From contig JASANE010028009.1 of the NCBI GenBank assembly GCA_030248225.1, positions 1 through 64,000 of the forward strand: DNA of 64,000 bases. The letters run 5' to 3'. Source of the stretch: Trileptium ribeirensis (Eukaryota > Nematoda > Enoplea > Enoplida > Thoracostomopsidae). Under the pieces are notes generated by a model, which was not told the origin of the DNA, ran no database searches, and was given only the letters and a program-made list of their open reading frames with translations. Position numbers and translations under genes: made by a program. Of the stretch, positions 1 to 63,413 are shown piece by piece; position 1 is the first letter of the stretch; each line of letters begins with the position of its first letter.

Positions 1-59
1 ATAGTATATATAGTATGTATGTAGAAGATATACATATGTTGCGGTACACATTACGCTCG

Positions 60-43643: not shown

Positions 43644-43724
43644 TGTAACAGCCCGGGTTTTGCGAGGGATCTCAAACATTCAAAATCAGGCCATAAAGGC
43701 CACAAAATGCAATGGATAAAAGGG

Positions 43725-43907
43725 CGATCGGATACAGGTGGAGCGTGGTCCGGACTATAACTTGTGTATTGTTGTTTCGTTGTTATAAAATAAATTCCAT
43801 ACCATCATGGTATTGTGTTGATACGGTCACGCTCCACCAGCCCGAGGTGCGCGGGGTGACTTCGCACCAAAATTGAATCAAAATACTACTGCAGGGGTAT
43901 CCGATCG
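43725..43907. repeat. Nested inverted repeats
   Basis: Outer pair CGATCGGATAC (43725-43735) and GTATCCGATCG (43897-43907). Inner pair GGTGGAGCGTG (43737-43747) and CACGCTCCACC (43828-43838). A related GGAGCGTGGTACGGA occurs at about 43973. These may form an RNA stem or bind a dimeric protein within the putative LTR. Confidence 0.75.
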
Positions 43908-45324
43908 ATCCCAGGATGTTATTACGTTATGAATGATATCGATGCATTAGTATGTAAGAAATTTATATTGGAGCGTGGTACGGATGCGTAATCGAATCGG
44001 CCGGGGACAGGGGAAAGGATTTCACGATTCTCTTCACAATTTGGCTCAACAGATTTTCAAAGTAGGTGCCCCAGGGTCGTTTCTGATGCGCATCCGTAAA
44101 TAATTAAATGTGCTTATTTGTTAAGTAGCACCATGTATACTGTATGTAATACCAAGTGTCAGGATGGGTCAGGGCATTGTGCAGAACCCCACAAAAAGGT
44201 GCGTTTTGAGTTTTCTTGTCGATGTTTTGGGACCTGGGAAGACCTATCCTGACATGCGGAAAAGTAAATAATTAGCTTGTGTACCTGAATATATCATGGG
44301 ATGTTGCTTCGTACCGTTACTTCGTTACTTCGTATTAACAGTTACTTCGTATTTTAGAAAACGCTAGGACCAAGCGACAAGACGACTAACTTCAACTTCT
44401 GAGGGGTGTTCTATCATTTTGGAAATTTTGGAGTATTTTTAATGTTTAGGCAAAAAGGGGGTGATAACACCGTGATCAGGGATCTTTACGGCTTCAAAAT
44501 TGTTCCTTCGGGTCAACATACTCCCAACCCGAAAGTACTTATGGACCCCCGATCCGGCGTTTAAATTCCCAAATTTTCGGGCCCTAAATCACTACATCTC
44601 AAACCAAAACTCCCCGATTTTTGGACTCCTACACCTCGATTGGGTCCTATACTAACTATATTATTGAAAACCGGGGCCATCCGCCCCAACGGGTCTGCGC
44701 AGGATTCCCATAACCCAATCGGGACCCAAAATTTCCCTATCGTGCACGCATTCTTCTGCCTCTATCGGGCCTCCTAGGGTGCTTACACTAAATTCAAGAC
44801 TCTCACAAGCAGGCGACCAGCCAGGGCATTGATATGACCCCGCCCCCGGCCGCCTACTCCATCCTGTTCCTGAAATATGAGCAAAAAAATAACAAAATTA
44901 CAATACGTTTGAAGCGCCTAAAGCGCTGATATATTTTGCCATCGTCGAAGGCCTCGCGCCGACCAGCGCGAGGTTTTGTTGTTTACGCGGCCTCTCGATA
45001 TTGTGGCCAAAAGTTGTCTGCTTGGGGCGTTTATCATATTGTTTTGACCATAGTCCGACTACAGCAACACGAGCCCGGCTAATGTGTGTGTATTATTATT
45101 ATAGTTGTCGCCAATGCTATGGGCTGTTGGTTATTATGTGCGTGGACGAGCCTGCTATGGTCGCCTTGTTTTGTTAAATACATATATTTTCGGCTCGTTC
45201 TGTTTTGTTATATACATCTGTGTTGGCGGCGGTGACTTTAAAAGTTTTAAATTTAAAACTTGACGCGATTTTGAGAGCTAGAGCACACAGAGAGGAGAGC
45301 AAGCAAAGGGGGGTTCAAGCTAGG
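43908..45324. other. Putative upstream LTR (U3) sequence; no gene seen
   Basis: Mixed-composition DNA with higher GC than the left half of the window. No coding region. Assigned to the LTR only by position upstream of the TATA box. Confidence 0.35.
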
Positions 45325-45332
45325 TATATAAG
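45325..45332 (+). promoter_or_regulatory. TATA box of the giant LTR element
   Basis: TATATAAG, followed about 30 bases later by a GGACCAGTCGAG initiator-like segment near 45356. It is the only well-formed TATA box noticed between 43.6 and 49 kb, oriented toward the gag-env ORF. Confidence 0.5.
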
Positions 45333-45359
45333 GAGACTGCCCGATTCCCCGATCGGGAC

Positions 45360-48300
45360 CAGTCGAGAAATATGTGTTTAAGTTCGCCGGTTGCCGACAA
45401 TTAAAATTGTAGTTTTCGCTATGTTTTGCTTTTGTTTTAGGCTTCTCTTTTAGACTTGCCAGGGCTCGTTTCTCGCCGTGCCCCCACGGTGGAGAGCCCT
45501 CCCTGGATCTAGGACTTTCACAATCACGCAAGGGCCGCCCTTTGCGGGCTTTGGAGTGTCGGAAGGATGCTCCGCGCGCCCGTAAAGGTCGGACCTCGAC
45601 AAAATTCGTGAAATTGCATCAAATGGCTCAAAATTCTGATCAATCGCATCTCGACTGGTTCCCCGCTCCTCGGACATTTTCTTTCTTTCACAGGTCCGAG
45701 GAGTGATCAAAATTTCTACTTCAAGGCAAATGTCACTGTGCAAAATTTCTAGGTTATGGCAAAACTGCTTAGGGTTGTGTTCTACTTGATAAAAATTTTC
45801 AACTCCACGGCAAGTGATTCCGTTTTCGAAGGGGCAATTAAGTGGTGTTTTGAAAGGATTAATCAAAATTTCAAAGGTGATAGGAGTGACAATGGGACGT
45901 GGCCGTTTGCATCCTCGGGTGACACGCGTTGTCCCCAATTATCTGAAATCGAGCAGCAGCGTCGAATCCCCATTCGTTCGTTGTTTCTTCTGCTTCTGGT
46001 TAGACTCTGATGCAAACGACTGCGGACCCGACCGTGACAAAATTTTACTAGGCACTCGTTGAGCATAGCACGAAACAGAGACTGGAGCTGGCGGTGAGCT
46101 GAATCGTATTAAAGTTTGGTGGGACGTGGGTTTTCTAACCGTGCAACTACGAGGAAAATCTAGGTCGGCACCCTCTCCCGGAGCCCACTGGGAGCGAGTT
46201 TCGAATTCGGCGAAATGGTCGTGGGCCGATCCAGTCGCTGTTGGAATTGCATGAACTTCTGGATCTTCCGCCCTATTTCCGCGAAGTTCAAATCACCTAA
46301 TAGGACCAATCATAGTGGGTCAATAGATAAACAACCGTTTAATTGACAAAAGAAAAATTGTGGAAGTCCCAGGAAAATTAGCAGTCTCATCAAAATTTTG
46401 TCTGGCTCTTATTTCGGTCAAAGGTTCCTCAGGGTATAGCACTCGGAAGAGCATGTAGTATATGCTGTACGGTATCTTGTAGGGTACTCGAAACTAATAA
46501 CGTTACAATATACATGTTGTAAATAATTGTTGTATGCCCCAATTGGGCGATATTATAAGGTGTGTCAAATACAAAAACGCATCAATAGTAAAACGATTGA
46601 ACCGCGTGTCACTTCTGGAAGCAGTTCGGAAATTTGTTTAATTGTCTAACCACAGTAGTTTTGCCTTGAATACTTCTAGCCTCGGTAAGCGCCCCTAAGG
46701 ATCTATGAGTCAAGTCAATTTTAACCGCAGCGAGCAACACCTCCACAACACCACGCCCGCTCCACTACGTCTCCCGGCGTAACCCGCACGCTTCCACTTC
46801 AGAGTCCGAATCAGCGATCCTCTCCGCACTTTGCATTATACCCGCACTGTCAGGAACGCCTCTGCCGCTAACCTCTTGCAGATAATCCTCGCCTTGCATA
46901 GCCCGCCGCCCGGTTTGCAACTCAAATAATTAGAATCTTGACACCCAAGGGACTGGGGTCTCCGCCTCAGTGCCTTAACGTTAAAATAAGTAACTAAACT
47001 TTGTCACCATTCAAGTTTCATAGGGCCAGTCATGTTTTACCTAGGATTAGAACGGGACAATGGCACAAGGGGACACAACCTTATTCAGCTATACTAGGGC
47101 CAGAGAACCCCGCTTAGGGGATTAAGTGGATAATGAGGGAAAGGCGAGTCAGCCTTATTACCTGTGAGCAGGCTTAGGGGTTGACTCTCCCTCGGGGGAC
47201 CTCATACCATTAGACACGTGGGCCAATATAGGGGCCAGGCCGAACACCCTGGTTAACCCGCCGGCAGCCTGCTAAGCTAAGCGGTTCCCTTAGGTCATCG
47301 CATAGACCACCGGGGGAGTCGTGGAAGCCGGGGTTGTCCGGGCACCACACGCTAAGGAGAACAGTGGTGCAGCTGGGATCCCTTAGGGCCAGAACTGGTC
47401 CTAGTACATAAATTTAGTGGGGGCCACGCCGTGAGGCGTCAATGAATTTTTGAACAAAATAACCCTCATTTTTCTTTGAATCGCTAGTTCTCGGACCTCT
47501 CGCACGCCAGCAAGGCCGGCTGACTTTTCGACCAAATTTGTGGAGGCACCATGTCAAATTTCAATCAATTGATGAACAGCTTAAATCAGTGACTTGTATG
47601 ACTGCAGTATAGTTAGTCTCAACGAGGCATTTTAAGTGTTTGCAAGTAATGATGGTGTGTATGACGTCAGCTCATGCGATCCAAGGGTCTGGCGCAAACC
47701 TATTCATCTGCTTGACTAGGGCTCAGATCAATTTTATCCGAAAGCGCCCATTTTCGGTTTTTGGTCGTCTAACTAGACCCTAAAACAAGCAACAAAATTT
47801 GTGGACCGCATGAGTTGATGTAAAATATGAAGAACGAGAGGGGTCGAACTGAGATGTGGAATGCTGAGGCACCGTGCAACCGTCCGATGAGGCCGAGGTC
47901 GGTTCGCGATGTATTACAACGTTTTGGAGTCACCGGGTTTTTATTTACGAGTGACTTGGTGTTTATTTAATTGGTATTAACTAGTTTAGATCATAAACGG
48001 TGACAGAGTTCGAGTAATTCGCGTGGTTATCGACGCTGTTAAACTGATATTGATTGACGATACAGCCAGTCGGCGAACATTTGCTGCCCTAGTAACTCTG
48101 ATTGGGACTAATTATCAAACGCTCAGGTCTCTTCGGCGTCGTGAGTGATCGCTTGGTAAATTGGACTATCTTGGCGAACATTAAATTAGTGGCGCTACGG
48201 TTGTGTGATTATCTACGCAGACGAAAGTTGACACTATCGACTAGCCGAATTATTGTCACCTTAAAGGCGCACCACACACCGATCATCACTACAGCATCTC

Positions 48301-49076
48301 GAGTAACTGTTGGCATAACGGACGACATCGGGCCTCAGTGGACGAAGCGGACGACTCAGGGACGCAAAAGAACAATAAACGCTGCCGGTTGCACTGAAAG
48401 ACAATCAAATGATGGTCAGTACTGTACCTTGTATGATTTATTAGTTATTTTGTTACTTTGAAATAATGTGTGCGAAGGTACATCGTGGCATTTTGTAGAA
48501 TTGGCTTAATTTGTAACCGTTTACCGTGTATGGTAATTGTCGTTTTGGTTCTAAGGCACGTATCTCCGGTTTAAGGTGATTAGCGGATACCAAGGAATCC
48601 TTCTGTGAATTTCACACGCATAGTTGTGAAAAATTCTTTCCGAAGTTACACGCTTTTCCAGTTAACGGGTACCGAAATTTGGATAAGGTGGCGGAGTAGT
48701 AGCACCGAAGTGGTCGAGTTCTGTTGCCCGTAACGAGCCAACTCTCAAAACAATCGATACAGTGTTTTAGCAGTTTCATTGAGCTAACCCCGCAAGTAAA
48801 GTTTTGAAACAATAAGGGTTATTTGAGACCTAGGACGAACCAGCTGATACACCTGCTAGCAGTGATTTAGCGTAGCGAAAAGTTCACACAACCAGTCACA
48901 TACTTAAGGAATAGGCACACAGGTACAGTGAAGTTTACTTGACAGTAGAACTTCCGCTATAAAGTAAACACGTATATTTGATCATACATTTAACATCCGT
49001 GCTCAAGTCAGGTTTGAGCTACGGACGCCCAACAGCTCAAAACAAATAGGGAATATTAATAATTCGGAATTCAAAA
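45360..49076 (+). other. Long untranslated leader (R-U5 and 5' UTR)
   Basis: About 3.7 kb before the Gag-Env start. It holds many short upstream ATGs and a GC-rich, possibly structured zone (46920-47420). An antisense open stretch of 162 codons (45450-45938) and a sense one of 119 codons (48102-48461) resemble no family and are not called. The LTR/leader boundary and primer-binding site were not identified. CTTGGCGAACATT near 48174 was considered without convincing support. Confidence 0.45.
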
Positions 49077-52000
49077 ATGTCATTGCCAGCGAGCGCAAAT
49101 AGAACGCCGATTAGCGGCACGTCAGCAACAACAAATGTAGGAGGTGGCACGGCCACCACGGCTGGTAGTACAAATGGACCCAGCCCCACTGTATCAGGAG
49201 ACCCATTAGTAGCAATCCTACAGCAGCTTATGGAACGGACTACGACAACGGCGCCAATCATACAGGTGGGCGACATCCCACAATTTTCAGGAGCTGACGG
49301 ACAGGACTTTGAGGCATGGCTAGCCACCTACGACAACTTGACGGACGCAAATGGATGGACATTAGAACAGAAACTCATCTGCTTCCCGACTGTGTTAAAG
49401 GGCGAAGCGCTTAAGATATACGAAAGCTTCCCGGACTGCCAGAAACAAACGTACGAAGCCCTTTGTTACAACATGGGTTTCATGTATTCCTCCTCGCAGC
49501 GCGACGAAGACGCATTAATCACGCTACGCATGCGCATACAGGGAGAACGAGAATCAGTCGCTATGTACGGACTTGACCTCCAAAACCTAGTGGACAAAGC
49601 ATTCCCGGAGGTCGAAGGCGAACAACGTGACGCGCTACTACAGAAATTCCTGCGACAAGGACTGAGGAAGGAGTTGAAGTCTAGTGTTATAGGGAAAACC
49701 TATCCATCTTTCAAACACATGATGGATAAGCTCAAGTACAAGGAGGACGCCATTATAGCGTCCCAAAAGGATATTATCGGAGTGCCGGTTCGCAAAAGCA
49801 GCCGGTCTAAAACAGTTAATTACATGACACAGGGAGGTGAAAATAACCAACTAGTAGATCAAATACGTGAGGCACTCGATGAGAACAAGCGCACCACAGC
49901 CGGCAGCGATGCTACTATCGCTCGGCTCATTGATCTACTAGACAAGCGTACTGAGCAACACCAGTTAAATGCGATGATGCAAAATAACGGAGCACCGCAG
50001 ATAGGCGCAAATGCGATACCACCAGCAACGCCGGTAGGAAACCAATGCTTTCGATGTGGCTATCTAGGGCATTTCGCTAGGGAATGCCCGTATTTCCGAA
50101 TGGACATATACGATCCATTGCAAAACGAGTATACACGCTTAGCCACGCGAGCAGCGCCTAACTACACGTACGGTGCACCGCCACCGCCCGCTATCGAATA
50201 TGCTAGGCCGCCACCGCAGTACAATAATCGTCCTCGCTATCGAGTAGTTGAACCTAGAGGTGGAGCACGCTACTCGCGACGTGATGATTGGAACAATACA
50301 GCTAATCAGCGGGGATACACTGGTTATGGGCAGCAAGGATACTATCGCCCAGAGCCCGCAAATTACAACACGTATGGCAATGGTGGTCAGACCGAATACT
50401 ATAACAGATCCCGCGGACGCAGCGCAAATGGGTATAACCAGCGAAACAACGGGTATAACCCAACATACGATCGACGCTATGCTGCACCACCCCAACCACT
50501 GTCGGCCGAAGCCGCACCGTTTCGACCGCGCACGCCTAGTAACGGTTGGAATAACGCAAATCAGTTAGGAGCAGTGCCTCGAAATAGACCCGCGCAGGCA
50601 CCAATACATAATAACGAACGAGTTGATCGCCGTAACGCCGGCGTAATGTCAGTGACCAAAGCAGTAGATCCTGAGCTAGCACACCGCTTAGATGTCATGC
50701 GACATGAAATGTCTACGCTTGAAGAACGCGCAGGAGCTGGCTTAGGCACCCGTTCAGCACAAGTTAACTTAATGGTCACTGAAGATGAAGCAATGCCAGA
50801 ACAAAACAGCCCAAATTTCGATATTGAGCAAGAATATCCAGAGGAAATCGAAGCAGAACCAGGTGCATATCAGGTAAATTTATTGCAAACCAGTAAGGAC
50901 ACACCACGAGAATGGTCACAAGCGATCAGGTCGCGGAGTGGCATAGAACCAAGGCAAACATATGAAGAAGAAACACTTGCATACGGAGAATACAACTACA
51001 GTGAAGTACAAAGCAATACCGAACCCATACGGCGCTCGGCTTTGTTGTTTCCAACCCCTGGCGCGCAGGGTGTGACCCGAGACCTTGTGAATACTGGTTG
51101 GCCAACCAACTTATTTGTATATCCCGATAGGAAGTCAGCGCGAGGAGATGAAGAGTACCGAGATACCGAGCAGAGGAGTGAGAGGGGAGGAGGAACCGAG
51201 AACCTAATGGAACCAAAGGAACCTAATGATCCTGATGTGCCGAGTGAGAAATATGGGAGGTGGCCGTTCGGACTTCGGGGGCCGATTAATAGGGCATCCG
51301 TGTCTAGCAATGACCCAAACGCTGGCACGTGTAACCCATCTCAGGCGGCTGCACATCGGATGGAACCTAAGAACCTAATGGATGGAGAACCTAATGGAAT
51401 GGAACCTAGAGAGACGCCGTTCGGACTTCGGGGGCCGATTAATAGGGGTCGCGTGTCTGGTAATGGCTCTAACGCCGGCACGGTACAACCTGGGGAAGCG
51501 ACTTTCTGTAGGCTTATTCAAAATTATATATGTGAAGCGGAACCAGAAGAACCTGCGGAGGAACTTATGAACCTAATGGAACCTAATGGACTTGCGGATA
51601 CCGAGAACCTAATGGAACCTAGCGGATGGAATGGATTACCGAGGAACCGAGAACCTAAGGAACTAAGTGAACTTAACCTAGCGGATGCATCCAACTTAAC
51701 TAAACTGACTTCCACCAATTTAGGGCGGCCGTGTGAGGCCCCTGTAGCTTTTCAACCGACCGGGGAAGACCGTAAAGGACACTGGTCAGGTGCGATGGAG
51801 ACCTTCGGAACACGGGTCAGTCCGATTGTCCTAACTCCGTTCAAAATTCGAAAGCGTATATGTACCCCTAGTATCTTTAGAGGCCGGGGAAGACCGCTCG
51901 TGGACACTGGCCAGGTGCGAGGGAGGCGTCGGGAAGTGAGCTGTCCTGATTGCCCTAGCTCCGTTCAAAATTATAATTTATGTGTAGGATCAAATTCGAA

Positions 52001-55000
52001 TAGAGTTCGGTCCCTAAGTGTAGGAGCCGTAGGGCCCGACCAGGTCGGGAGCCGCGGTTATCGTTTGTCGTTGCATAGTAGCTCAAACCGGCAGGTGAAT
52101 ATGTGTGTGCTTGAGTCTGAGTCGGCTAGAACCGACACCACGGGAATGTGTGTAGAACCGGGGGTAGAGACTGTGCAGCATGTGAGTGAAACAGGTTTAG
52201 GGCTACACGGAGACAACGCCGAGCCGAGTGCCGAAAACATTACAAGCCTGGAACACCACGATAATCGAGCTAGAATCAGCGAAACTATGGAACCTAATGA
52301 CCATATGGCGGAACCCAATGATACCGACGGAGAACCTAGTAACCTAAAGAAGAATTATGTTGATAAGGAAGAACCAGTAGTAACCAGCAAAAGCTCGAAG
52401 ATTGTGATGATAACACCCATAGTAAATAACATAGCACAGAGAACAGACGGAACGGAGAACCAACGATTGGAGAGTAAAACAGAAATTGTAACCTGTCAAC
52501 TGAGTACAGAAGAAGCCCACGAAATAGGGATCAACTCGACCGGATCGCCGGTTGACCTGACAAAAGTAATTGAACACGCATTGAACGCACCTGAATCGTT
52601 GGGGAATGTACAAACTTTCGGCCGAGTTAGTATGAATCCCGCGATTAACAACATGGACATAAATTTAGCGGAATCCGAATACCTATTGGATCAAGGGCGT
52701 ATCCGTATACATAAACAGCAGGTATTGGACATCATATTAAGGAAATTGCTCGCAGTAGATAACACCAGCGAAATAATAGAGCCCTTGATCTTGCAGGGAT
52801 TTCCGGATGAGGAACGATTAGTGCTGCTGGGACCGGATTCAGAATTTGTACCAGCAGTTAAACCGGAGTGTCATGGGAAGTTCCCCCACTACACGCTCGC
52901 GCTACCTAAGTTACGTTTCGGGGAAGACCGAACACCAATAAGATCACTATTTTATCGGAGGGTCATAGCTGTGTCGGAGCGTATATGCCATGCCCACCAG
53001 TTGCTTCGGATCCGAGTAGCTGGAACGGCCCGAATTGACCGACGGCGGGACGCTGCCGTTTTGTCAGGGCTGTTAGGGTTCGCATCTCCGTTCCTACACA
53101 CTATGCCGGGGATACACGTTAGCAGTAGCATGTTGAAACACCTTGAAGGACTTTTGGAGATCGTTGCCCGGGTTATTAACGCAATGAGCATTACACAGGC
53201 AATCACAGAAGTGTATCGGTCTCAAATTCCTATTCTACAGACATGCATCATGTGCGAGGAACGACACAATACAAATTTTATGCCTAGGGAAGAGTGTGCT
53301 TTTATCACCTATCATGGCGAATGGGATTACACCGGAAATCTGTCCGCAGACTATGGAACCATCAGACGGGACGGGACAGTATCCATTCGACCAAGTAGCA
53401 CACAAGGGTTATACACGGCCTACGAACTCATAGCGTATAGGGAAGCCAACTTGGAGTTTCTAGAAACCATTATAGATGCGCCGTACCTATTAGACCACCT
53501 AGTTACGGAATTCGACGAAACCGGACCTAAGGTTCCGGTGCAGTCGCTACATCGCATCGTGTACGCTATAATGGCTAACGCCCTTTTCATTGACATGGAT
53601 AGTAAACCGAAGCGCGAGGAACTATTATACCTACGACTGTTATGGTTGCGCAAGCCCGCTCAAAACATTTGGCAAAATGACCCAACGGAAGACATGGACT
53701 TAATTCCAAACATGGACCATGACGCGGACATAACATTCATCGACGAAGAGGAACTTGAAAGTGAGTTGAGTGCAGTACTCAGTGACGCCAGCGATGACGA
53801 ATTTGACATGCCAGCAATTGACTCACTCGACTCTGACGAGCTCATTTCTGAGCTGGGTTTCGCCGTGGGCACTGAAGTTGCCAGAAATGGACATGACGAT
53901 AATGCTACTGATAGGAGTGACCGGGTATCACCGATCAGGTCGGTACGGTCCTCTCCAAACCTATTAGGACAAGGTATAAAAGCTGCGGTCGGATTGCTAA
54001 ATAAGGGAACTAAAATAATGGGATTGCTAGTTGCTCTGTTAATCCTTCATCAGTTAGGGCAAACTCACGCTATCGCTACGCCATTCTCAGACCAAGTTGC
54101 ACGCTTAGGAGCCATGGTAAATCAACAAGTGGGTACGCTAATCGAACCACAAGGCTTGGTAATAACTGCTTCACAGTCTACCTTTTTACCAATAATTTTA
54201 AGACTATCGTTAGATGGACTACAACCTAGTAGACAAGCAACTGGTATGGCGTGGTGTGTATACACTCCTCGGGGTAAACCATGCTTGGGGAACTGCTGTC
54301 CAAACCCAAATTGTACTACCATGCCGGATTTACAACAGAAAATACAGGAATTAGAAAGAGAATTAAGGAGCACCTATCAAGGTGTATTGGACACTAGTTA
54401 CTACATGGCACTAATGCGCGAATATTGCGAAGCGAACTCTCATCTTTGTGAGGAACCTAAGGTTAGAAAGAAACGATTTCTCGCTGCATTAGCTGGAGCC
54501 GCAGGCGTAGTAACAGGATTTTTAGGTGTAGGTGTAGCGTTCACCAACGCTGTACACCTTAAGGACTTAAATAAGCAGGTGCTAGCGTTATCTAAAGAAA
54601 TGAGGAACACCTATAATGTCGCTTATGGAAACTCGCGAGCTATAATGAAACTAACGCACGCTAACGAGGAGTTATACTCATTTTTACATCATGAGATGCA
54701 GGTAGTAGTCGCTATGATCGATCAGGTAAGGTGCCAGGAGCAACGCTATGTAACTGAGGTCCACCGCGAGCTAGTTAACCACATGTTTCGCACTAGCCTT
54801 CGATCATCGGTCGACGCTGTCATGGAAGCCATGATGAGCGGTCAATTATCACCTAAGGTAGTGGACGCATCCACGCTAAAGAACTTATTCCAAAAGAACT
54901 CGCAGATATCGCAGAACATTTTAATACGCGACCCAGCACTAGCATACCAGTTCGGACAAATCTACCCAGTGCACATCGATCTAGGCTCATTTAAATTTGC

Positions 55001-55808
55001 TTTCATACTGCGGGTGCCATTAGTTACGTCGGACGACGTCCGACCCTACTTCCGCATATACAACGTCGGCTGGAACGTCCCAGAACGCAGCGCTCACATG
55101 AAATTACCATTACCTGATTACGCTACACGGATAGAACGAGCGCGGTACGAAGTACTAAAATTACACGCATGCAACACGCGACCAGGTATTGCATTCTGCG
55201 AAATACACGCCTTAGCAACGGATCATACATCACGCTGTTTGGACTGGATTATCATGGGCGAGGACGCTCCAGAGGAAGCTCGCCAACTTTGCAAGAACAG
55301 TGCATTGGTCGGGCCAATGGCAAACCATACCGATGTCTACACCACGGCACAAGGAGTGTTAATTCGAACTGCTGAACGTAAGGCTGTCGTCTCCAAGAAG
55401 AAACATCTTAGCCACGTTACCCGAGGAGAGACAATTAACATCGCTGACAACGGAGTTTTGTGGTTGTCACACAACAACTATACCCAGCTCGTGGTCGGGC
55501 CACTTATGCTGGCTAGCACACTAGACGCGCAGGAAGTCACAATCCATATTGGACCTAACATCACTGTCCATGACTTTCCGGACATACCGCTCAAACCAAT
55601 TGCTTGGAGCTCGTTGGAACACGCCAAAGCGACGAACTTACAAGTCCAACAAATAGCAGACGAGCAGTTGAAGAAGGTAATTGACTTCCCATACATCACT
55701 ACCACTGGCGTAACTCCTTACTTATGGATGCTCATCGTGCTAGCAATTGCCGGGATAGGGGCAATAATCTACTTTAGGAAGAAAGCTGGATTCTTCCTAA
55801 ATGCATAA
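49077..55808 (+). CDS. Gag-Env polyprotein of errantivirus-like element
   Basis: 2243 codons without interruption; AAAAATG gives A at -3. Residues about 65-230 form a retrotransposon Gag capsid-like region (FEAWLATYDNL, LKGEALKIY). A CCHC knuckle is at C324, C327, H332 and C337. A Tyr/Gly/Asn/Arg-rich stretch follows (about 350-480), then a long Glu/Pro/Asn-rich linker with internal duplications (about 700-1000), a possible folded region (about 1190-1540) and an acidic patch (1554-1598). An internal hydrophobic signal (about 1643-1662, ending THA) precedes an envelope-like part: a CXXCC-type cysteine cluster near 1736, basic site RKKR at 1797-1800, Ala/Gly-rich fusion-peptide-like segment, helical heptads, and a C-terminal membrane span (about 2210-2230) with a short basic tail. 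Capsid and glycoprotein would be separated by proteolysis. Fusion of gag and env upstream of pol is atypical. Assignment of Env is by architecture, not by a database match. Confidence 0.85.
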   Translation: MSLPASANRTPISGTSATTNVGGGTATTAGSTNGPSPTVSGDPLVAILQQLMERTTTTAPIIQVGDIPQFSGADGQDFEAWLATYDNLTDANGWTLEQKLICFPTVLKGEALKIYESFPDCQKQTYEALCYNMGFMYSSSQRDEDALITLRMRIQGERESVAMYGLDLQNLVDKAFPEVEGEQRDALLQKFLRQGLRKELKSSVIGKTYPSFKHMMDKLKYKEDAIIASQKDIIGVPVRKSSRSKTVNYMTQGGENNQLVDQIREALDENKRTTAGSDATIARLIDLLDKRTEQHQLNAMMQNNGAPQIGANAIPPATPVGNQCFRCGYLGHFARECPYFRMDIYDPLQNEYTRLATRAAPNYTYGAPPPPAIEYARPPPQYNNRPRYRVVEPRGGARYSRRDDWNNTANQRGYTGYGQQGYYRPEPANYNTYGNGGQTEYYNRSRGRSANGYNQRNNGYNPTYDRRYAAPPQPLSAEAAPFRPRTPSNGWNNANQLGAVPRNRPAQAPIHNNERVDRRNAGVMSVTKAVDPELAHRLDVMRHEMSTLEERAGAGLGTRSAQVNLMVTEDEAMPEQNSPNFDIEQEYPEEIEAEPGAYQVNLLQTSKDTPREWSQAIRSRSGIEPRQTYEEETLAYGEYNYSEVQSNTEPIRRSALLFPTPGAQGVTRDLVNTGWPTNLFVYPDRKSARGDEEYRDTEQRSERGGGTENLMEPKEPNDPDVPSEKYGRWPFGLRGPINRASVSSNDPNAGTCNPSQAAAHRMEPKNLMDGEPNGMEPRETPFGLRGPINRGRVSGNGSNAGTVQPGEATFCRLIQNYICEAEPEEPAEELMNLMEPNGLADTENLMEPSGWNGLPRNREPKELSELNLADASNLTKLTSTNLGRPCEAPVAFQPTGEDRKGHWSGAMETFGTRVSPIVLTPFKIRKRICTPSIFRGRGRPLVDTGQVRGRRREVSCPDCPSSVQNYNLCVGSNSNRVRSLSVGAVGPDQVGSRGYRLSLHSSSNRQVNMCVLESESARTDTTGMCVEPGVETVQHVSETGLGLHGDNAEPSAENITSLEHHDNRARISETMEPNDHMAEPNDTDGEPSNLKKNYVDKEEPVVTSKSSKIVMITPIVNNIAQRTDGTENQRLESKTEIVTCQLSTEEAHEIGINSTGSPVDLTKVIEHALNAPESLGNVQTFGRVSMNPAINNMDINLAESEYLLDQGRIRIHKQQVLDIILRKLLAVDNTSEIIEPLILQGFPDEERLVLLGPDSEFVPAVKPECHGKFPHYTLALPKLRFGEDRTPIRSLFYRRVIAVSERICHAHQLLRIRVAGTARIDRRRDAAVLSGLLGFASPFLHTMPGIHVSSSMLKHLEGLLEIVARVINAMSITQAITEVYRSQIPILQTCIMCEERHNTNFMPREECAFITYHGEWDYTGNLSADYGTIRRDGTVSIRPSSTQGLYTAYELIAYREANLEFLETIIDAPYLLDHLVTEFDETGPKVPVQSLHRIVYAIMANALFIDMDSKPKREELLYLRLLWLRKPAQNIWQNDPTEDMDLIPNMDHDADITFIDEEELESELSAVLSDASDDEFDMPAIDSLDSDELISELGFAVGTEVARNGHDDNATDRSDRVSPIRSVRSSPNLLGQGIKAAVGLLNKGTKIMGLLVALLILHQLGQTHAIATPFSDQVARLGAMVNQQVGTLIEPQGLVITASQSTFLPIILRLSLDGLQPSRQATGMAWCVYTPRGKPCLGNCCPNPNCTTMPDLQQKIQELERELRSTYQGVLDTSYYMALMREYCEANSHLCEEPKVRKKRFLAALAGAAGVVTGFLGVGVAFTNAVHLKDLNKQVLALSKEMRNTYNVAYGNSRAIMKLTHANEELYSFLHHEMQVVVAMIDQVRCQEQRYVTEVHRELVNHMFRTSLRSSVDAVMEAMMSGQLSPKVVDASTLKNLFQKNSQISQNILIRDPALAYQFGQIYPVHIDLGSFKFAFILRVPLVTSDDVRPYFRIYNVGWNVPERSAHMKLPLPDYATRIERARYEVLKLHACNTRPGIAFCEIHALATDHTSRCLDWIIMGEDAPEEARQLCKNSALVGPMANHTDVYTTAQGVLIRTAERKAVVSKKKHLSHVTRGETINIADNGVLWLSHNNYTQLVVGPLMLASTLDAQEVTIHIGPNITVHDFPDIPLKPIAWSSLEHAKATNLQVQQIADEQLKKVIDFPYITTTGVTPYLWMLIVLAIAGIGAIIYFRKKAGFFLNA
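51267..51484 (+). repeat. Direct repeat in Gag-Env linker (offset 151)
   Basis: CCGTTCGGACTTCGGGGGCC starts at 51267 and 51418, and similarity extends about 66 bp to GCTGGCACG/GCCGGCACG. The protein repeat is FGLRGPINR. The offset is not a multiple of three, but each copy is in frame through surrounding indels. Confidence 0.8.
51760..51975 (+). repeat. Direct repeat in Gag-Env linker (offset 126)
   Basis: CCGGGGAAGACCG near 51760 and 51886 begin two diverged copies, each ending CTCCGTTCAAAATT (51836 and 51962). The offset of 126 keeps the frame. It is part of a chain of linker duplications with nearby GAACCTAATGGAACC repeats. Confidence 0.75.
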
Positions 55809-57907
55809 TGGGACGCTTACAGCGTTGGTGGCAACAACGACCATGTGCTCGTGAGGAACTAAGGCGACCTGAATTGCATGTTAAGACGGACAATGAGTAT
55901 GGCACCACAACCGCGCCGCGACCAACTGTCTCAGCCCCAGCTGCTCCCACGGAACATCTCAAATTACGTACAGTGAGTCCACGCCGCTCAGCACGACTAA
56001 ACGCTACCAACGAAGACGAAAGCGTCGTTCTAGTAGAGCCTACTGAATTATTCGCGGTATCTGAGCGATCCCAACGTAGAGGACACCGGACAGTAGCCTA
56101 CCACCGACAGGTCAACGCGATACATCATATGGACGCACCCTTACTCATCAATGCATTTGTGTACCGCACGCCAGTACTTACACTAATAGATACAGGGGCA
56201 GATGTTTCCATCGTGTCCCAATACTTGGTAAATAAATTAGGCCTCCAGCCGCAGCCTGACGATTCCACTAGGATAGTATCTGCCACCAAACAGGAATTAG
56301 CATTAGATGGCAGCATAAGTGTACCTTTGTCGATCGGGTCCATAAAGGTACAAACTGAATTCTTTGTCACTAAAACAGCACCTTATCACTGCATCATAGG
56401 AACAAATTTCATGTCCCAGTTGCCAAAGTGCATCATAAATTTTAAGGAACGTTGCTTAGAAATAGCAGTGGATGAGGAAGAGGCTAAGATACCTTTTGCA
56501 GGTCTAGAGCGCTACGACCCACCACTAATTGCAGTAATGTGTCGGAAGCTCACCACCATAGAACCAAACACTGAAACATTCATTAATGCGATTCCCGAAA
56601 TAGCTGAAACAGGCGTAGGACCGGCACTATTTGTGCCCGCACCAGAAATGGTTGACATCGCAATGGCACATGCATTAGTGTTAAGAAGTCAAAGAACCAT
56701 ACCAATCGCAGTAATTAATTTCGGAAATACACCGGTCACTATCTATGCCGGACAAACAATAGGTCACATTGAGGTAATGATGAACCCCAACGTGCAGTTC
56801 TTGAAGGACACAAACAAAAATTTGATCCGGTATGAGGAGCACAAACCTGCCAAGCAATTAAATAACATTACTGCACACCCTGAAAGGATCATCCAACACA
56901 TAGAGGCAGGAAAAAGGTCAATTGACCATGAAAGAGCTCAAACGGTCTTGAGTAAAATAGATTTTGATAAGACCCTATTGTCGCCGTTTGAGCTAAAACA
57001 GTTGAAAACCGCAATTGCTGAAAACGCAGATGTCTTCAGCACGCACGACTTTGATTTAGGACGCTACACAGAACATAGGCACCGCATCGAGACCGGAGAC
57101 GCTAAGCCAATTAAGCAAGCACCGTATCGACTAGCACATTCCTTGCGCGAACCGCTTCGCGAGGAACTCAACAGTATGCTAGATGCGGGACTAATATCAC
57201 CATCAAGCTCACCTTGGGGATCACCAATAGTGTATGTAACCAAGAGTGACGGCTCACTCCGACTCTGTGTGGACTTTCGGAAGGTAAACACAGTAGCAGA
57301 ACAGGACGCATATCCATTGCCTAGAATGGACGACATTGTAGGATGCCTCCGAAACACCAAATTAATGTCCAGCTTAGATCTAAATAAGGGTTTCTGGCAG
57401 CTAGAATTAGATCCAGAAACCAAAGACAAAACATCTTTTGTAACAGTTCATGGGCAATATGAATACAACGTCCTACCGTTCGGATTAAACTCATCCCCAG
57501 GAGCTTTTCAACGTTGCATGTCCATGATTTTAAAGGGGTTAGAGTGGGAAAAATGTTTAATCTATATTGACGACATACTAGTATTTTCGCCAACATTCGA
57601 AGATCACTTGGCAGACCTAATCAAGGTTTTCGATCGTTTTCGTAGGGCAAACTTAAAATTAAAACCATCAAAATGCCATTTTGGCAGAGGTAGTCTAAAA
57701 TATTTAGGACACATAATTAGTACAGAAGGCGTAAAACCAGACCCAGAAAAGGCAATAGCAATAGAGGAATTCAAACGCCCGGAGACGCTGAAGCAGCTTC
57801 AAAGTTTCCTGGGACTAGTAGGTTACTATCACAAAGTTATACCAAACTACTCGGACATATGCGAACCACTCAATGAGTTAAAACGCAAGGATGCAGTATT
57901 TAAGTAG
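55808..57907 (+). CDS. Pol, upstream part: protease and reverse transcriptase
   Basis: The ATG overlaps the Gag-Env stop (TAATG at 55806-55810), suggesting termination-reinitiation. Residues 1-100 are basic. The aspartic protease motif DTGA is at 128-131. The RT carries LRLCVDFRKVN, SSLDLNKGFWQLE, LPFGLNSSPGAFQR, YIDD (586-589) and YLGHIIS. All are standard for Ty3/gypsy elements. The frame ends at an in-frame TAG (57905-57907) just after the RT connection region, in the middle of pol, while the same frame continues open for 819 codons. The stop is most simply a recent inactivating mutation. Confidence 0.9.
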   Translation: MGRLQRWWQQRPCAREELRRPELHVKTDNEYGTTTAPRPTVSAPAAPTEHLKLRTVSPRRSARLNATNEDESVVLVEPTELFAVSERSQRRGHRTVAYHRQVNAIHHMDAPLLINAFVYRTPVLTLIDTGADVSIVSQYLVNKLGLQPQPDDSTRIVSATKQELALDGSISVPLSIGSIKVQTEFFVTKTAPYHCIIGTNFMSQLPKCIINFKERCLEIAVDEEEAKIPFAGLERYDPPLIAVMCRKLTTIEPNTETFINAIPEIAETGVGPALFVPAPEMVDIAMAHALVLRSQRTIPIAVINFGNTPVTIYAGQTIGHIEVMMNPNVQFLKDTNKNLIRYEEHKPAKQLNNITAHPERIIQHIEAGKRSIDHERAQTVLSKIDFDKTLLSPFELKQLKTAIAENADVFSTHDFDLGRYTEHRHRIETGDAKPIKQAPYRLAHSLREPLREELNSMLDAGLISPSSSPWGSPIVYVTKSDGSLRLCVDFRKVNTVAEQDAYPLPRMDDIVGCLRNTKLMSSLDLNKGFWQLELDPETKDKTSFVTVHGQYEYNVLPFGLNSSPGAFQRCMSMILKGLEWEKCLIYIDDILVFSPTFEDHLADLIKVFDRFRRANLKLKPSKCHFGRGSLKYLGHIISTEGVKPDPEKAIAIEEFKRPETLKQLQSFLGLVGYYHKVIPNYSDICEPLNELKRKDAVFK

Positions 57908-60367
57908 ACTCCTAAGTGTGAGGATGCATTTAAGAAGCTAAAACAAGCGCTATTAGATGAACCAGTACTAACACATCCCGATTTCACGCAGCCGTTCATT
58001 TTACAAACGGACGCTTCAGGATATGCAATGGGCGCAGTGCTCTCGCAGAAAACTAAACAAGGTCTCAAACCCATTGCATACGCAAGCAAAGCTCTGTTAG
58101 ATTATCAACGCCGCTACCCCGCAATCGAGGCCGAAGCTCTCGCAATCAGATGGGCAGCGTTACACTTCAAGCACTATTTGGTAGGGCACAAGTTTCATGT
58201 CGAAACCGATCACAAACCGTTAAAAGCCTTGTTTGACAAACCACCTAGAAACTCACGCTTATCCCAGTGGCGCAGTGAATTACTACTTGAATTCGGAGGA
58301 TTTGAAATACTATATAGACCAGGTAAAGAGAACGGCAATGCCGACGCGTTGTCGCGGGATCCTAGGTATGACCCACACATAAATGAAGAAACAGGAGACA
58401 CGTATGAAATATTAATGATGGGTCGAGGACGACCCACCGGACCTCGCCCACCCACAACCTGCGCAGCATGGGACCAATCGCATCTGCCGTATCCCGTACG
58501 CACAGTGACACCGCTCACACCTGGGGCGCCAACAGCAGTAATAGGAAGTCCGATAGCTCCCCCAGGACAGCCAAACCCCGAGGCAATCCCATCGCAACTA
58601 GTTCCCGACACGCAGATAACTACAGTACCCCCAGCGACGCTAACACAGCAAGCAGCCACGCTCAGTGCTATCCCAATTAGAATGGATCCAGGAGGAACAC
58701 CAGCAATGTCAGTACACACTACAACAATCTCGGGTTCTGGAGTCGGACCTCAGGCTCGAGGATCTAAAAGGCCACACCGGCCCGAATCAGAAACCGTAGG
58801 ACTAAGAGCAACCACATTACCGACAGAGCAGGAATTTGATAGGCTCATGAAATTAATGATGCACTATGAAACTGAAATATTACCAACAGTAAGGATCGAG
58901 GACGCACAAGACACCCACGAAAACATATACCTACCATTCTTTTCAGACCTCCCAGATTTTAATCTAGTACGGCTCTTGCCGTACATCCAAAGAAATGACC
59001 CAGAACTGGGTCCAATTTGGTGGTATTTATACAACAAAACACGGCCCAAGGCCGAATTGGGCGCACTAAGAATAGAAATGCGGGCTCATTACTTCGAACT
59101 AGCCCAAGACACGAAAATATTATATATGCATCCATTACAACCAGGGGACATAAATTACAAATTGTGCGTCCCAATTACACTAGTACAGCAGGTACTCAAA
59201 CACGAACATAACACCTTATATGGAGGACATCCTGGCCGCGATCGGCTACTAGCAAAATTAAAGCAATTTTACTACTGGAAGGGTATGTCGGAGCACGCAC
59301 AACAATGGATCAGGCGATGCACTCTATGCCAATCCGCGAAGGACCCAATTGCTCGGATAACCACCGGATTGGGTAGGGTTCCGTTGGCAAATCAACCAAT
59401 GTATCGTGTATTCGTAGACATACTCGATATTCAAGTTCGGTCGCAAGCGGGTAACCGCTATGTTATTGCATTCATCGATCAATTCACAAAATTTGCAATA
59501 GCAGTGGCAATAAGGCACCAGGATGCACACACAGCCGCACACATATTTTTATATGAGGTAGTCAACAAGTACGGAGCTCCCAGGGAACTATACTCCGACA
59601 GAGGAGGTGCTTTCACCGCACACATGTTTGAAAGTCTGTGCCAGGAAATGCAGATATTTCGACACATGAGTTTAGCTTACCACCCTCAGGCAAATGGAGA
59701 AATTGAACGATTTAATAGGACTTTACTATATTTATTACGGGTAAGCGTACCACAAAATGATCATCACTCATGGGATGTATCATTACCATTTTGTATCATG
59801 GCTTATAATTCATCAGTACACACCGCAACAAAATACCCACCATTTTTGCTCATGCATGGATTCTATCCCAGGTTACCCGGAGAATACGACACGCATAGTG
59901 CAGCCACAGGATACACAGGAGCCCACTCCTATAGGGCCAACGCGCAACGCTGGATGGCTTCTATTAGGGAACGCGCATACCAGTCAATGAGAGCCGCTCA
60001 AGAGATAAATCAGCTGAGGTACAATAGGCGTACCCGCGAACCTCGCTATCAAACAGGTGAGTTAGTTTGGGTCTATAGGCACGACACCACACCGGGAACA
60101 TCTAGAAAACTTACGCCTCGTTGGTGCGGACCATACAAAATACTAAGGATCACTCCGCCATGCATGCGTGTAAGAATGCATTCCAATCCGGAAGGCATGG
60201 AACATGTCGTGCACATTAATAGGACAAAACCTTGTTTTAGGGCATTATATCCAGTGCCTAATGTAGGGGACTGGCTAGGTCAAGTACACGCTTCCGTATT
60301 AGAAAGGGGTCTAAATGAACCAACCCAACGAATTATCGCTGATAGGGATTTTGTTACCGAAATATAA
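57908..60367 (+). pseudogene. Pol, downstream part: RNase H and integrase
   Basis: Same frame as the upstream part, after the TAG. RNase H has QTDASG, the EAEALAIRW block and ETDHKPL. A Pro/Thr-rich insert of about 140 residues (58400-58840) separates it from integrase, which is longer than usual. Integrase shows an HHCC zinc finger (about 59200-59335), catalytic D (59417), D (59597) and E (59705) in DD35E spacing, and YHPQANGEIERFNR. A GPY/F-like module (RWCGPYKILR) lies near 60118. No start codon context is evident, so without readthrough this part would not be made. It ends at TAA 60365-60367. Confidence 0.88.
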
Positions 60368-61660
60368 CCCGTAGATGAAGTAGCAGTGCGTACCGTAAGA
60401 ACAGCAGTCAGTGATAGTTCAGACACCGAGAGTATAGAAATGGGTGACCCTAACGATCCTAACTTATATCGTCGGACATACGCAGAAATCGAGGCCGAAC
60501 AAGCAGCAGTGGAGCACATTGAGTATCGGACGGACGACTACGAGCCGCAGAATCCAAGGACAGTCAGGAATCGGATTCCTCTGACTGATCCAGATAGAGA
60601 AATAGAACCCTCTTGGCCACCAATATCGCAGGAACAGGTTACAAGCCAAGAAGCATTTTCATACATACCAGAACCTGGTAGCCGAGACACTCAGGTAGAA
60701 TATGGACGACACACTGTACCAGTAACAACGATGGAAAGGATAGCAGCCACCAGCGAGGAAGTTCCATTCGGCGTACCGACTGTAGGTGTAGGCATACTTG
60801 AAGGACAACACTTCTATCCCGCGGATGTTACGCTGTCCACTACACCTCGAGGAGCTTCAGGTGGAATCGTCGTACCTGGTCCATACACTTCAGGAGACCT
60901 GCGCTATGCAATTATGCTCGCTGCTCAGGACCATCCATTATTTCAATCACGACCAGCTGAACATATTATGGCATCACGGCTGCGGGTACCAATGGAAATG
61001 TCAACTCAAACTGTAGGAGACTATTCGACAATACGCCCTTATAGCGCTCCACCAGCAGCTGCCGACAGGCCTATGTCTCCCCATCAATATGTTTATCGCG
61101 AGGCAGCCTTTACTCAACCACCAGGGTCACCAATGTCCAGCTATTTATCAGAAACATCGGGCGAAGGCACCACGGTGGACGTGAGAGCAGCTGAAGCAGA
61201 CGACGAGTTAACTAGCCAGACATCGCAGGACCCCTCTTCAGCTGAACGACGCGGTCAAGCAGGACAGGAAACATCCAGCAGTAGTTCTCGAACACCTACT
61301 ACGCAACCAGGAACCTCCGACTCACTAAGCGAATTCACGCTTGCGGAATCAAGCAGCGAACCACCAGCACCCCGAATGGGAATCGTTCGCGCGGTAACCT
61401 TAGATACCTCTGCCCGCACACGAGCATCGACAGAAGAACGAGGAAAGGCACTTGTTGGACGGGCCACGCAACGAAAACAAGTTGCATCAGCACGAGGAGG
61501 TTTGACCACCCAGTCTGGCACCACTGACCAGCCAGGACCATCCGCGGTAACCATCACAGCGCAGGTACACCCCACTACTGCTGCTACTACCTCCTCAGGA
61601 ATAATACGCCTTAGTACGACTCATGCGACGGTCCCATCCAGACACTTACTACATCGCTAG
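60368..61660 (+). CDS. ORF3: Ser/Thr/Pro-rich protein, pol frame
   Basis: Open directly after the pol TAA and in the same frame, with no ATG at its beginning. The first ATG is internal (near 60440, MGDPNDPNLYRRTY). The N-terminal half has mixed composition (PFGVPTVGVGILEGQ; GDLRYAIMLAAQDHPL). The C-terminal half is Ser/Thr/Gln/Pro-rich and probably disordered. The PNDPN motif recalls the NDPN/EPNDPD words of the Gag-Env linker. It ends at a TAG (61658-61660), and the frame continues. No family recognised. It could be expressed from a spliced RNA, by reinitiation, or as a pol extension; the sequence does not decide. Confidence 0.55.
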   Translation, partial: PVDEVAVRTVRTAVSDSSDTESIEMGDPNDPNLYRRTYAEIEAEQAAVEHIEYRTDDYEPQNPRTVRNRIPLTDPDREIEPSWPPISQEQVTSQEAFSYIPEPGSRDTQVEYGRHTVPVTTMERIAATSEEVPFGVPTVGVGILEGQHFYPADVTLSTTPRGASGGIVVPGPYTSGDLRYAIMLAAQDHPLFQSRPAEHIMASRLRVPMEMSTQTVGDYSTIRPYSAPPAAADRPMSPHQYVYREAAFTQPPGSPMSSYLSETSGEGTTVDVRAAEADDELTSQTSQDPSSAERRGQAGQETSSSSSRTPTTQPGTSDSLSEFTLAESSSEPPAPRMGIVRAVTLDTSARTRASTEERGKALVGRATQRKQVASARGGLTTQSGTTDQPGPSAVTITAQVHPTTAATTSSGIIRLSTTHATVPSRHLLHR

Positions 61661-62038
61661 GCCAGGGACCGGGTCTTTAGGCCATACGGCGCAGCATCAG
61701 ACGAAGAGATAGGAGACGCCTTACGCAGACATAGACGCGTAACCTTCCAGGAACCCGGGACGACCATCACTGAAACAGCAGGAACATCAACCAGGCTAGC
61801 CTCTACTACACGCACCCAATCCACCACTGTCACCACTTCAATGACCAGTGCACCAACACCAACCCCACGACAACTTTTAATGGAAGGACGCTCGCCAGGT
61901 GGGACACAGCCACCAACCTCATTCTCCCGATATCCTTCTAGCCAGGAATTACACCCTGCAGCTTGGCGACGACGAACACCCCGACCACCACCCTATGAAG
62001 AGTCTGACTCGGACGACCCTGACCTACGGGTGGACTAA
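61661..62038 (+). pseudogene. ORF3 continuation after in-frame TAG
   Basis: The frame of ORF3 stays open after TAG 61658-61660 to TAA 62036-62038. It keeps the same Thr/Ser/Pro/Arg bias (TTITETAGTSTRLA; RRRTPRPPPYEESDSDD), so it is probably the original C-terminus. The last residues are acidic. Confidence 0.5.
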
Positions 62039-62180
62039 TCCTAACCATACTCGCACGTACCTCAACACTAGTAAACACGACAGGCCAACAAAAGGGGAGT
62101 AGAAGAGGGGATCAGGAATACATTCACAGGTAAATAAGACTATCTTTGCACTCAGACTTATTTCGGTATACACATTATAG

Positions 62181-63413
62181 ATGCGACGAAGCTACAGTGC
62201 CAACGACATCCAGATGCCAATGCTACCAAAAGGCGTGCGGCACGTACCGATGGTTTGCGGCGGCGGCGTCTATCCGACGGTACCTCTTTATCAAGCTCCA
62301 CCAGGATCGCGCGGGGAGAATTTCGCCTCCAAAGGGGCCCGCCGGCCAATGCTCGCCAACGTGACAACGACGCTGGACAAATTCGAACATAACGGACGGC
62401 GCCTGTCCAGCGTGTCTGAGCATTTCCACCTCATCGTCCTGGAGCTGCTGGATTACAACAACGCCGCAAAAGAGTTGGCCGAGGCGAACATCAGCCCAAC
62501 CGAACTACAACTCCGTAGCATCGCACTCCATCGCCGCCTACCGATGGAGAGACGCTACATGCTGAAATCTTATTACCCGCATATCATGCGGCCAATACTA
62601 CTGGCCAAATTCAGCATGCCTGAATATGCGGAGGAGTTGGAGGCCACGAACGACCGGCGTCTATACAACGCCTCGCTCGACGATTTCTGGGGAACTGGCG
62701 CCTTCCACATTGACTGTTGTTGCGGGCGCACGTTCCATAACGTGACGGGTCGCCTGCTCGAGGAAATCCGGGCATATCATCGGGACGGCCTCGTTCGATG
62801 GCCCCAGGTCATAGTCGCAGGTGACGAACAGGCGTTGCCACTACTTAACGTCGCCGATCAACATAATTGGTTGGTGTTCGCATGGCCACGCATGGAGATG
62901 GCCGACTTGATACAGTGGGCCAACGCCTTCGTCACGCCACAGACGGACTGCGTAATCGTCCTCGGCGGTTGTGGCAAACTATGGCAAACGGACCGCAAAG
63001 TTTATTCGCCCAGTGCGTTCATCAAACGCATTAAGCGGAAACTGGAGGTCCTCGAACGACGCCTCCGAGAAAATGCGGCCGTCTTCATAGCTCCGCCGCC
63101 ACCACAGTGGAATGCCACGAATTACACCCGCGAGGCGTGGGCTACGGAGCTGCGTACACGGAAACTGCGCCTTACCGCGGACCACCAAGCGCTCCGAAAC
63201 GTCGTCATGGCCCCATGGTCGGTACCACTAACGGCACCCGAAGCCTGGTATATGGTCGGACCGTTCAACCGGGGTGAGGATCGCCAACGATGGGCCGAAC
63301 CGGTGGTGGCACCTGCCTACCACCCGGAGCTGGTCAATTGGGTGGGCCATTATGTTCGTTGCACAGGACTTTTTCGTCTTGGTGAACAACGCGGACGTGA
63401 CGACGAAAAATAA
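62181..63413 (+). CDS. ORF4: 410-aa protein, possible divergent SGNH-hydrolase fold
   Basis: Starts ATGCGACGAAGC. It is uninterrupted and noticeably more GC-rich than the gag-env and pol ORFs. The N-terminal 200 residues are basic/mixed with a helical stretch (FHLIVLELLDYNNAAKELAE). Residues about 211-390 follow the block order of SGNH/GDSL esterases: VIVAGDEQ (block I, with Glu where the serine nucleophile should be), CVIVLGGCG (strand and loop of block III), then helices, a VFIAPPPPQW strand and PAYHPEL with a candidate His. If correct, the enzyme site is altered and may be non-catalytic. Esterase domains are known in CR1 LINE ORF1, but I know of none in Ty3/gypsy elements. The fold call is an inference. 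Confidence 0.6.
   Translation: MRRSYSANDIQMPMLPKGVRHVPMVCGGGVYPTVPLYQAPPGSRGENFASKGARRPMLANVTTTLDKFEHNGRRLSSVSEHFHLIVLELLDYNNAAKELAEANISPTELQLRSIALHRRLPMERRYMLKSYYPHIMRPILLAKFSMPEYAEELEATNDRRLYNASLDDFWGTGAFHIDCCCGRTFHNVTGRLLEEIRAYHRDGLVRWPQVIVAGDEQALPLLNVADQHNWLVFAWPRMEMADLIQWANAFVTPQTDCVIVLGGCGKLWQTDRKVYSPSAFIKRIKRKLEVLERRLRENAAVFIAPPPPQWNATNYTREAWATELRTRKLRLTADHQALRNVVMAPWSVPLTAPEAWYMVGPFNRGEDRQRWAEPVVAPAYHPELVNWVGHYVRCTGLFRLGEQRGRDDEK

Follow-up and report, generated by a model that had tools for sequence, protein, structure and literature searches.

The stretch analysed here (the window) comprises positions 1 to 64,000 of the forward strand of contig JASANE010028009.1 from the enoplid nematode Trileptium ribeirensis (assembly GCA_030248225.1), and it carries part of a Ty3/gypsy-type long terminal repeat (LTR) retroelement which measures 26.2 kb as a whole, has LTRs of ~3.75 kb and extends beyond the window. 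A sequence-only reading of this DNA had described a single frame that joins Gag to an envelope (Env)-like segment upstream of pol, and such a frame is present at 49077-55808 (+), with the pol open reading frames (ORFs) downstream. The parts of the coding region are as follows.

49077..55808, + strand: gag...env portion of the giant frame (2243 aa for the window copy), which runs on into pol in other copies
50043..50090, + strand: CCHC zinc knuckle, aa 323-338 (Pfam PF00098, E 4.4e-05)
53988..54065, + strand: hydrophobic signal-like or transmembrane (TM) segment before the Env-like ectodomain, aa ~1638-1660 (hydropathy)
54054..55805, + strand: Env-like segment, aa 1660-2243, with RKKR at 54465-54476, then a hydrophobic stretch, and a TM segment at 55719-55775
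56168..56419, + strand: retroviral-type aspartic protease (PR; Pfam gag-asp_proteas, 1.7e-09)
57239..57718, + strand: reverse transcriptase (RT; Pfam RVT_1, 6.9e-32)
58028..60367, + strand: RNaseH and integrase ORF (Pfam; H2C2 at 59168-59344, rve at 59390-59686), with premature stops in the window copy
60386..62040, + strand: C-terminal tail of the giant frame, a 424-aa ORF to 61660 in the window copy, with the frame end at ~62040 in the copy L039

To compare copies, we searched the genome for the Env segment. In total, 75 copies were scored among 2630 candidates, the counts being lower bounds; the segment had no internal stop in 58 of the 75, and in 11 it was held in one frame of 4,314-4,346 codons. 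We then cut out 30 loci, the best-scoring for the window Env and hence biased to low dN (nonsynonymous divergence), and read all of them for open frames. The junction between env and PR was open in 28, the exceptions being the window copy (L001) and L029, and also in all seven loci of a second subfamily, giving 35 of 37 over both sets. In an alignment of the junction that took 22 of the 30 loci, just one gap position separated the window copy from 20 of the other 21 loci, and L029 showed six. The pol ORFs of the window copy lie at 55808-57907 and 58028-60367, followed by ORFs at 60386-61660 and 62181-63413. In the copy on contig C12004 (L039), the frame stays open over pol, its end falling near window position 62040, and the stretch that holds the window stops at 57905, 60365 and 61658 is open in this one other copy; these stops are therefore lesions too. 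The giant frames of other copies were read piecewise only. The env/pol break is a lesion of the window copy, and the unit in intact copies is gag-env-pol in one frame rather than a gag-env gene followed by pol. Thus, of the order first proposed, the joining of gag and env before pol stands, and a separate pol does not, since pol shares the frame in intact copies.

Within the Env-like segment, RKKR at residue 1797 has a hydrophobic stretch directly downstream, and a C-terminal TM segment lies at 2215-2233. All 12 cysteine residues past residue 1640 and four sequons fall between the two membrane segments, with a fifth sequon (1609) preceding both. The hydrophobic segment varied in sequence yet kept its hydrophobicity in the 28 copies shown, and constraint began abruptly after it. 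A methionine at its start was present in 13 and absent in 15 of the 28 copies (out of 29) that were readable by motif, all seven of the second subfamily being among those lacking it, and a private env ATG was therefore rejected as a conserved feature; in these seven copies and L025, a methionine occurs inside the hydrophobic segment or at its end. A 2A peptide was likewise rejected, as NPGP is not present in the 2243-aa frame.

Selection on the frame was analysed from dN and synonymous divergence (dS). For 20 open copies of equal length (190 pairs), Env had a mean dN of 0.008, a dS of 0.52 and a dN/dS of 0.015, and the region from PR to the start of RT gave a dN/dS of 0.023 in the same set. 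With 29 copies of two subfamilies (22 + 7), the values were 0.012-0.027 for Env and 0.017-0.044 for PR to the RT start; these were 29 of the 37 loci, and the eight left out were the window copy and seven further loci that had stops or short ends. Every pair within subfamilies was used for Env and for PR to the RT start; between subfamilies dS was saturated, with only nine of 154 pairs computable for the part of Env from the fusion-peptide-like region to the TM segment. For Gag aa 1-345 in four copies, dN/dS was 0.02-0.07 in four of six pairs, and dS was saturated in the other two. The 80 codons preceding the signal-like segment (codons 400-480 of the loci) gave 0.34-0.37. Between the subfamilies, the proportion of nonsynonymous differences (pN) dropped from 0.378 to 0.046 in adjacent 25-codon windows just after the hydrophobic segment, which is the pattern expected for a signal cleavage site. 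Env is thus under strong purifying selection and is kept as strictly as protease and the RT start. With at least 75 copies, 58 of 75 stop-free in Env and a dN/dS near 0.015, a chance open frame is excluded. Of the checks proposed along with the sequence-only reading, those on other copies and on selection came out in its favour: the gag-env frame is shared by many copies, stays open and is under purifying selection in both Env (~0.015) and Gag.

Errantiviruses have the order gag-pol-env, with env as a separate ORF expressed from a spliced RNA. The present element shares with them a Ty3/gypsy pol and an Env-like gene, and differs in that env lies inside the frame before PR; it has no separate env ORF downstream of pol, where the ORFs are NADAR-related. 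A much closer architecture has been described for the Burro elements of dugesiid planarians, which are reported to carry an in-frame env between gag and pol and are called the first case (PMC6431247). The earlier statement that no element with this order had been described is contradicted by Burro. Both are giant Ty3/gypsy LTR elements that start with gag, have env in the same frame after gag and ahead of PR, and carry accessory ORFs, and both have one polyprotein frame, of 4,873 or 5,140 aa in Burro and about 4,300 codons here (PMC6431247). At 26.2 kb, with gag N-terminal, env before PR and a frame of >4,300 codons in 11 of 75 copies, the nematode element has the Burro architecture, the comparison being one of architecture and description and not of sequence. 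The two differ in that one CCHC knuckle was found here and two or three in Burro (PMC6431247), and in the two NADAR-related ORFs that follow the giant frame here. The Burro motifs BCL2, MATH/TRAF-C, BIR and ankyrin gave no Pfam match above cut-off in the pieces scanned; such accessory motifs vary among Burro elements, and the published ones come partly from HHpred (PMC6431247). For the dUTPase-like domain that Burro has between PR and RT, the sole match was to a dUTPase model from herpesviruses and fell below threshold (E 0.11). No further element with env between gag and pol beyond Burro was found in the titles and abstract openings listed from the open-licence literature. The arrangement is real, looks functional and has good backing from copies, but its headline architecture is already published, and by analogy the Burro precedent supports a polyprotein reading.

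These comparisons show the order of the parts, the shared frame and the membrane segments, and that Gag, Env and the region from PR to the RT start are under purifying selection. Since Gag and Env lie in one frame before pol that is kept across copies under purifying selection, the best explanation is that Env is made as part of a gag-env-pol polyprotein, with the element working like Burro; we regard this as probable, and it agrees with the initial proposal of an Env made at Gag level. In intact copies, the frame runs from Gag through a long variable linker and a more conserved region into a signal-like segment in its interior, then the Env-like ectodomain, which has a furin-type site, and the TM anchor; PR, RT, RNaseH, integrase and the tail follow. 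Translated as one polyprotein of about 4,300 codons, it would place Gag and the linker in the cytosol, the ectodomain in the lumen of the endoplasmic reticulum, and Pol with PR back in the cytosol. The adjacent protease, next to the TM segment, may then release Env, Gag and Pol, and a furin-like enzyme would prime Env at RKKR; Env function and particle release are likewise presumed.

Alternatively, Env may be made mainly from a spliced RNA, in which a 5′ donor near the gag start is joined to an acceptor that lies before the signal-like segment, the common frame being incidental. The weakly constrained linker just before env (dN/dS 0.34-0.37) leaves room for an acceptor, and a constrained RNA stretch (52965-53100) lies upstream. 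However, a separate env exon would not need gag, linker, env and pol to be open together, as they are in the 11 giant frames, or the env-PR junction to stay open in 35 of 37 loci, and we consider such splicing unlikely as the main route.

The polyprotein reading takes the segment to be an envelope glycoprotein, an identity that is likely and is based on its features. Class I fusion proteins have a hydrophobic segment, ectodomain, cleavage site, hydrophobic stretch, helix and TM segment in that order. Heptad-like periodicity was seen after the fusion-peptide-like region (p 0.013) and for 90-127 (p 0.002; eight tests, uncorrected). Several results weigh against this identity. The heptad signal was mixed, with p 0.09 for 201-230, 0.93 for 231-262 and 0.12 before the TM segment. 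A protein search with residues 1660-2243 gave no homologue at E 0.001 (7984 candidates scored), and an alignment search at E 10 gave no relative (7998 candidates scored), candidates being scored in these searches only if they had exact words in common or got through the HMMER filters. In Pfam there were sub-threshold matches only and none above cut-off, no convincing match was obtained in the PDB by sequence or by profile, and a single-sequence AlphaFold model had a pLDDT (predicted local distance difference test) of 36.6 and was unusable. The segment also matched nothing above threshold in PHROGs. The lack of any sequence relative in the protein and PDB searches, together with the failed model, would fit a membrane protein of another kind within the polyprotein, not a fusion glycoprotein. 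Against this, the hydrophobic segment, cysteine-rich ectodomain, RKKR, hydrophobic stretch, helix and TM segment stand in the class I order, and HHpred is reported to detect homology to Env at the corresponding position of Burro (PMC6431247), and a non-Env protein is therefore improbable. Finally, decay or misassembly of the window copy alone is a very improbable source of the gag-env fusion: this copy is indeed altered in length where env meets pol, and it has additional stops, but the gag-env frame is common to many copies and synonymous divergence between the subfamilies is saturated.

The Gag-like assignment in the sequence-only reading was supported by the PF00098 match and by the region around the CCHC knuckle, which showed 21% identity, across 269 columns, with the Gag portion of P0002, a gypsy-type protein (E 1e-06). 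The gag start, MS[LV]PASANRTP, was the same in the copies L049 and L050. The linker region, aa 576-1659, matched no Pfam family, and its part at aa 1200-1659 gave sub-threshold Pfam matches only (WSN at E 0.24 in the window and BNIP2 at E 0.11 in the same part of L032). One 84-residue PDB match of the linker was to EGFR kinase, at E 9.5e-04 for the best chain and at least 0.27 for the others shown, and was taken as chance. The linker also contains a 67-nt direct repeat, 85% identical, at window positions 51263-51329 and 51416-51482. By eye, a linker patch of a second-subfamily copy (L049:746-3001) has exactly the protein sequence of the window copy, in surroundings that differ, which suggests recombination between subfamilies. 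Downstream, the protease matched solved ASPRV1 structures (best E 9.5e-05), and the 424-aa part of the tail had no Pfam match.

A further feature lies within the coding sequence, ~1 kb upstream of env.

52965..53100, + strand: structured RNA stretch under synonymous constraint, containing a hairpin (52997-53023) whose loop is palindromic (53008-53013)

The proportion of synonymous differences (pS) between the subfamilies was 0.197 in the core 25-codon window and 0.6-0.9 in most other windows. A 171-nt piece of the window (52950-53120) folded at -79.4 kcal/mol, with a z of -4.67. Other results speak against an RNA element. The next lowest pS windows, codons 450-475 and 1550-1575, had values of 0.414 and 0.435. 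RNAalifold found double changes in none of the 48 pairs of a consensus structure from 36 copies, and a structure derived from the window had them in two of 61 pairs (eight cells), a number of pairs that 191 of 500 shuffles reached. Sliding the partner by -3 gave an equal pair number and covariation score (0.048), but 40.4% of cells paired compared with 94.6%. What speaks for an RNA element is its stability, together with the loop and the scarcity of synonymous change.

The loop hexamer was GGATCC, GGGCCC, GAGCTC, GACGTC or TGATCA in 35 of 36 aligned copies and TGGCCC in one, the GAGCTC and GGATCC loops being common to both subfamilies. An alignment of 29 copies contained 4735 hexamer windows, 3311 of them with at least four variants. 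Only three of these variable windows had at least three palindromes, the loop having five (97% of copies) and the others three each (66% and 14%); windows with a single palindrome reached 90% of copies. We also searched the genome with a pattern that left the loop free and required intact hairpin flanks. It matched 199 places and its reversed control none; among the 100 places listed, 80 had perfect palindromes (of five kinds), 11 had TGGCCC and nine had rare variants. In 98 of these 100 copies, the two central loop bases, which cannot pair within one loop, were complementary. A hairpin whose self-complementary loop stays palindromic through sequence change, with complementary central bases, is as predicted for a kissing-loop dimerisation site. 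We therefore lean slightly towards a candidate genome-dimerisation signal deep in the polyprotein frame, at which lineages would have switched self-complementary loops as if pairing with their own kind; the palindrome may instead have a function at the DNA level. In Ty3, the dimer palindrome PAL6 is in an apical hairpin near the 5′ end, at nt 391 (PMC11381356), and, judged from its order among the palindromes listed in that paper, it lies in the GAG ORF. Both palindromes are in an apical hairpin, whereas the present one is ~3.9 kb into the ORF and varies in sequence between copies yet stays palindromic.

After the giant frame, two accessory ORFs are related to NADAR.

62181..63413, + strand: ORF2, 410 aa, weakly NADAR-related (TIGR02464, E 6.8e-04, below cut-off)
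L039:2042-3415, minus strand: ORF3 of the C12004 copy, 458 aa (Pfam NADAR above cut-off, E 9.8e-14, 52.4 bits)

ORF2 had no Pfam match and was 38% identical to ORF3 of the window element (L031:29-1006); it had 104 genomic matches and a dN/dS of 0.092 over eight copies. ORF3 of the C12004 copy matched TIGR02464 at E 3.6e-15, below that model's cut-off, and ORF3 of the window element matched PHROG 1017, of unknown function (E 1.3e-08). No NADAR structure was matched in the PDB. By eye, ORF2 and ORF3 had been read as SGNH/GDSL in their C-terminal parts, but no search supported this, as searches do for NADAR, and it was dropped. NADAR domains are numerous in the genome (150 matches scored of 2317 candidates), and those listed exceeded the Pfam cut-off with at least 123.7 bits, compared with 52.4 for ORF3 of the element; perhaps this abundance reflects other repeats. 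NADAR domains are known from Ectocarpus Gypsy elements and oyster Tx1 LINEs (PMC12477816), and NADAR enzymes reverse guanine ADP-ribosylation (PMC11125620); as a guess, the accessory ORFs might act against host ADP-ribosylation. The Ectocarpus elements are likewise of Ty3/gypsy type with a NADAR domain, but carry it at the Pol N-terminus, whereas separate ORFs follow the giant frame here (PMC12477816).

The limits of the element were set from its LTRs.

43644..47408, + strand: 5′ LTR, ~3.77 kb, TGTAACAG...AGTACA (BLAST against L031, ends read)
47409..49076, + strand: leader from the LTR to the first ATG, 1668 nt

By BLAST, window positions 43641-47408 were 95% identical to a stretch of C18418:64001-70000 (L031), and the 3′ LTR, outside the window, was placed at C18418:66100-69832 with limits set by the TG...CA ends. 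The pair differed by a Kimura two-parameter (K2P) distance of 0.036 across 3720 aligned columns. As a target-site duplication, AGT alone flanks both sides, which is little better than chance. The limits of 49077-60367 given initially thus hold for ORFs and not for the element, whose LTRs sit further out. The LTR pair and the Pfam order protease, RVT_1, RT_RNaseH, H2C2 and rve are those of Ty3/gypsy (Metaviridae), and we assign the element to this type by LTRs and pol domain order, not by a tree. It had 137 protein relatives; among those listed, most had RT, RNaseH or integrase domains, and some were named Gypsy-like or K02A2.6-like. Elsewhere in the window, a long open frame at 1-1227 (minus strand) resembles, by eye, a reverse-transcriptase fragment of a non-LTR element.

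Taken together, what is new here is evidence from many copies that an in-frame Env-like segment is under selection, the occurrence of NADAR-related ORFs in a gag-env-pol setting, and an RNA element that switches palindromes. With its NADAR-related ORFs, the element joins the retroelements reported to carry this enzyme family. If the loop is a true dimerisation site, its palindromes would provide a natural variant set for genome pairing in a Ty3-type element. The architecture raises the testable question of how a polyprotein that is otherwise cytosolic could yield a membrane glycoprotein from its middle part.

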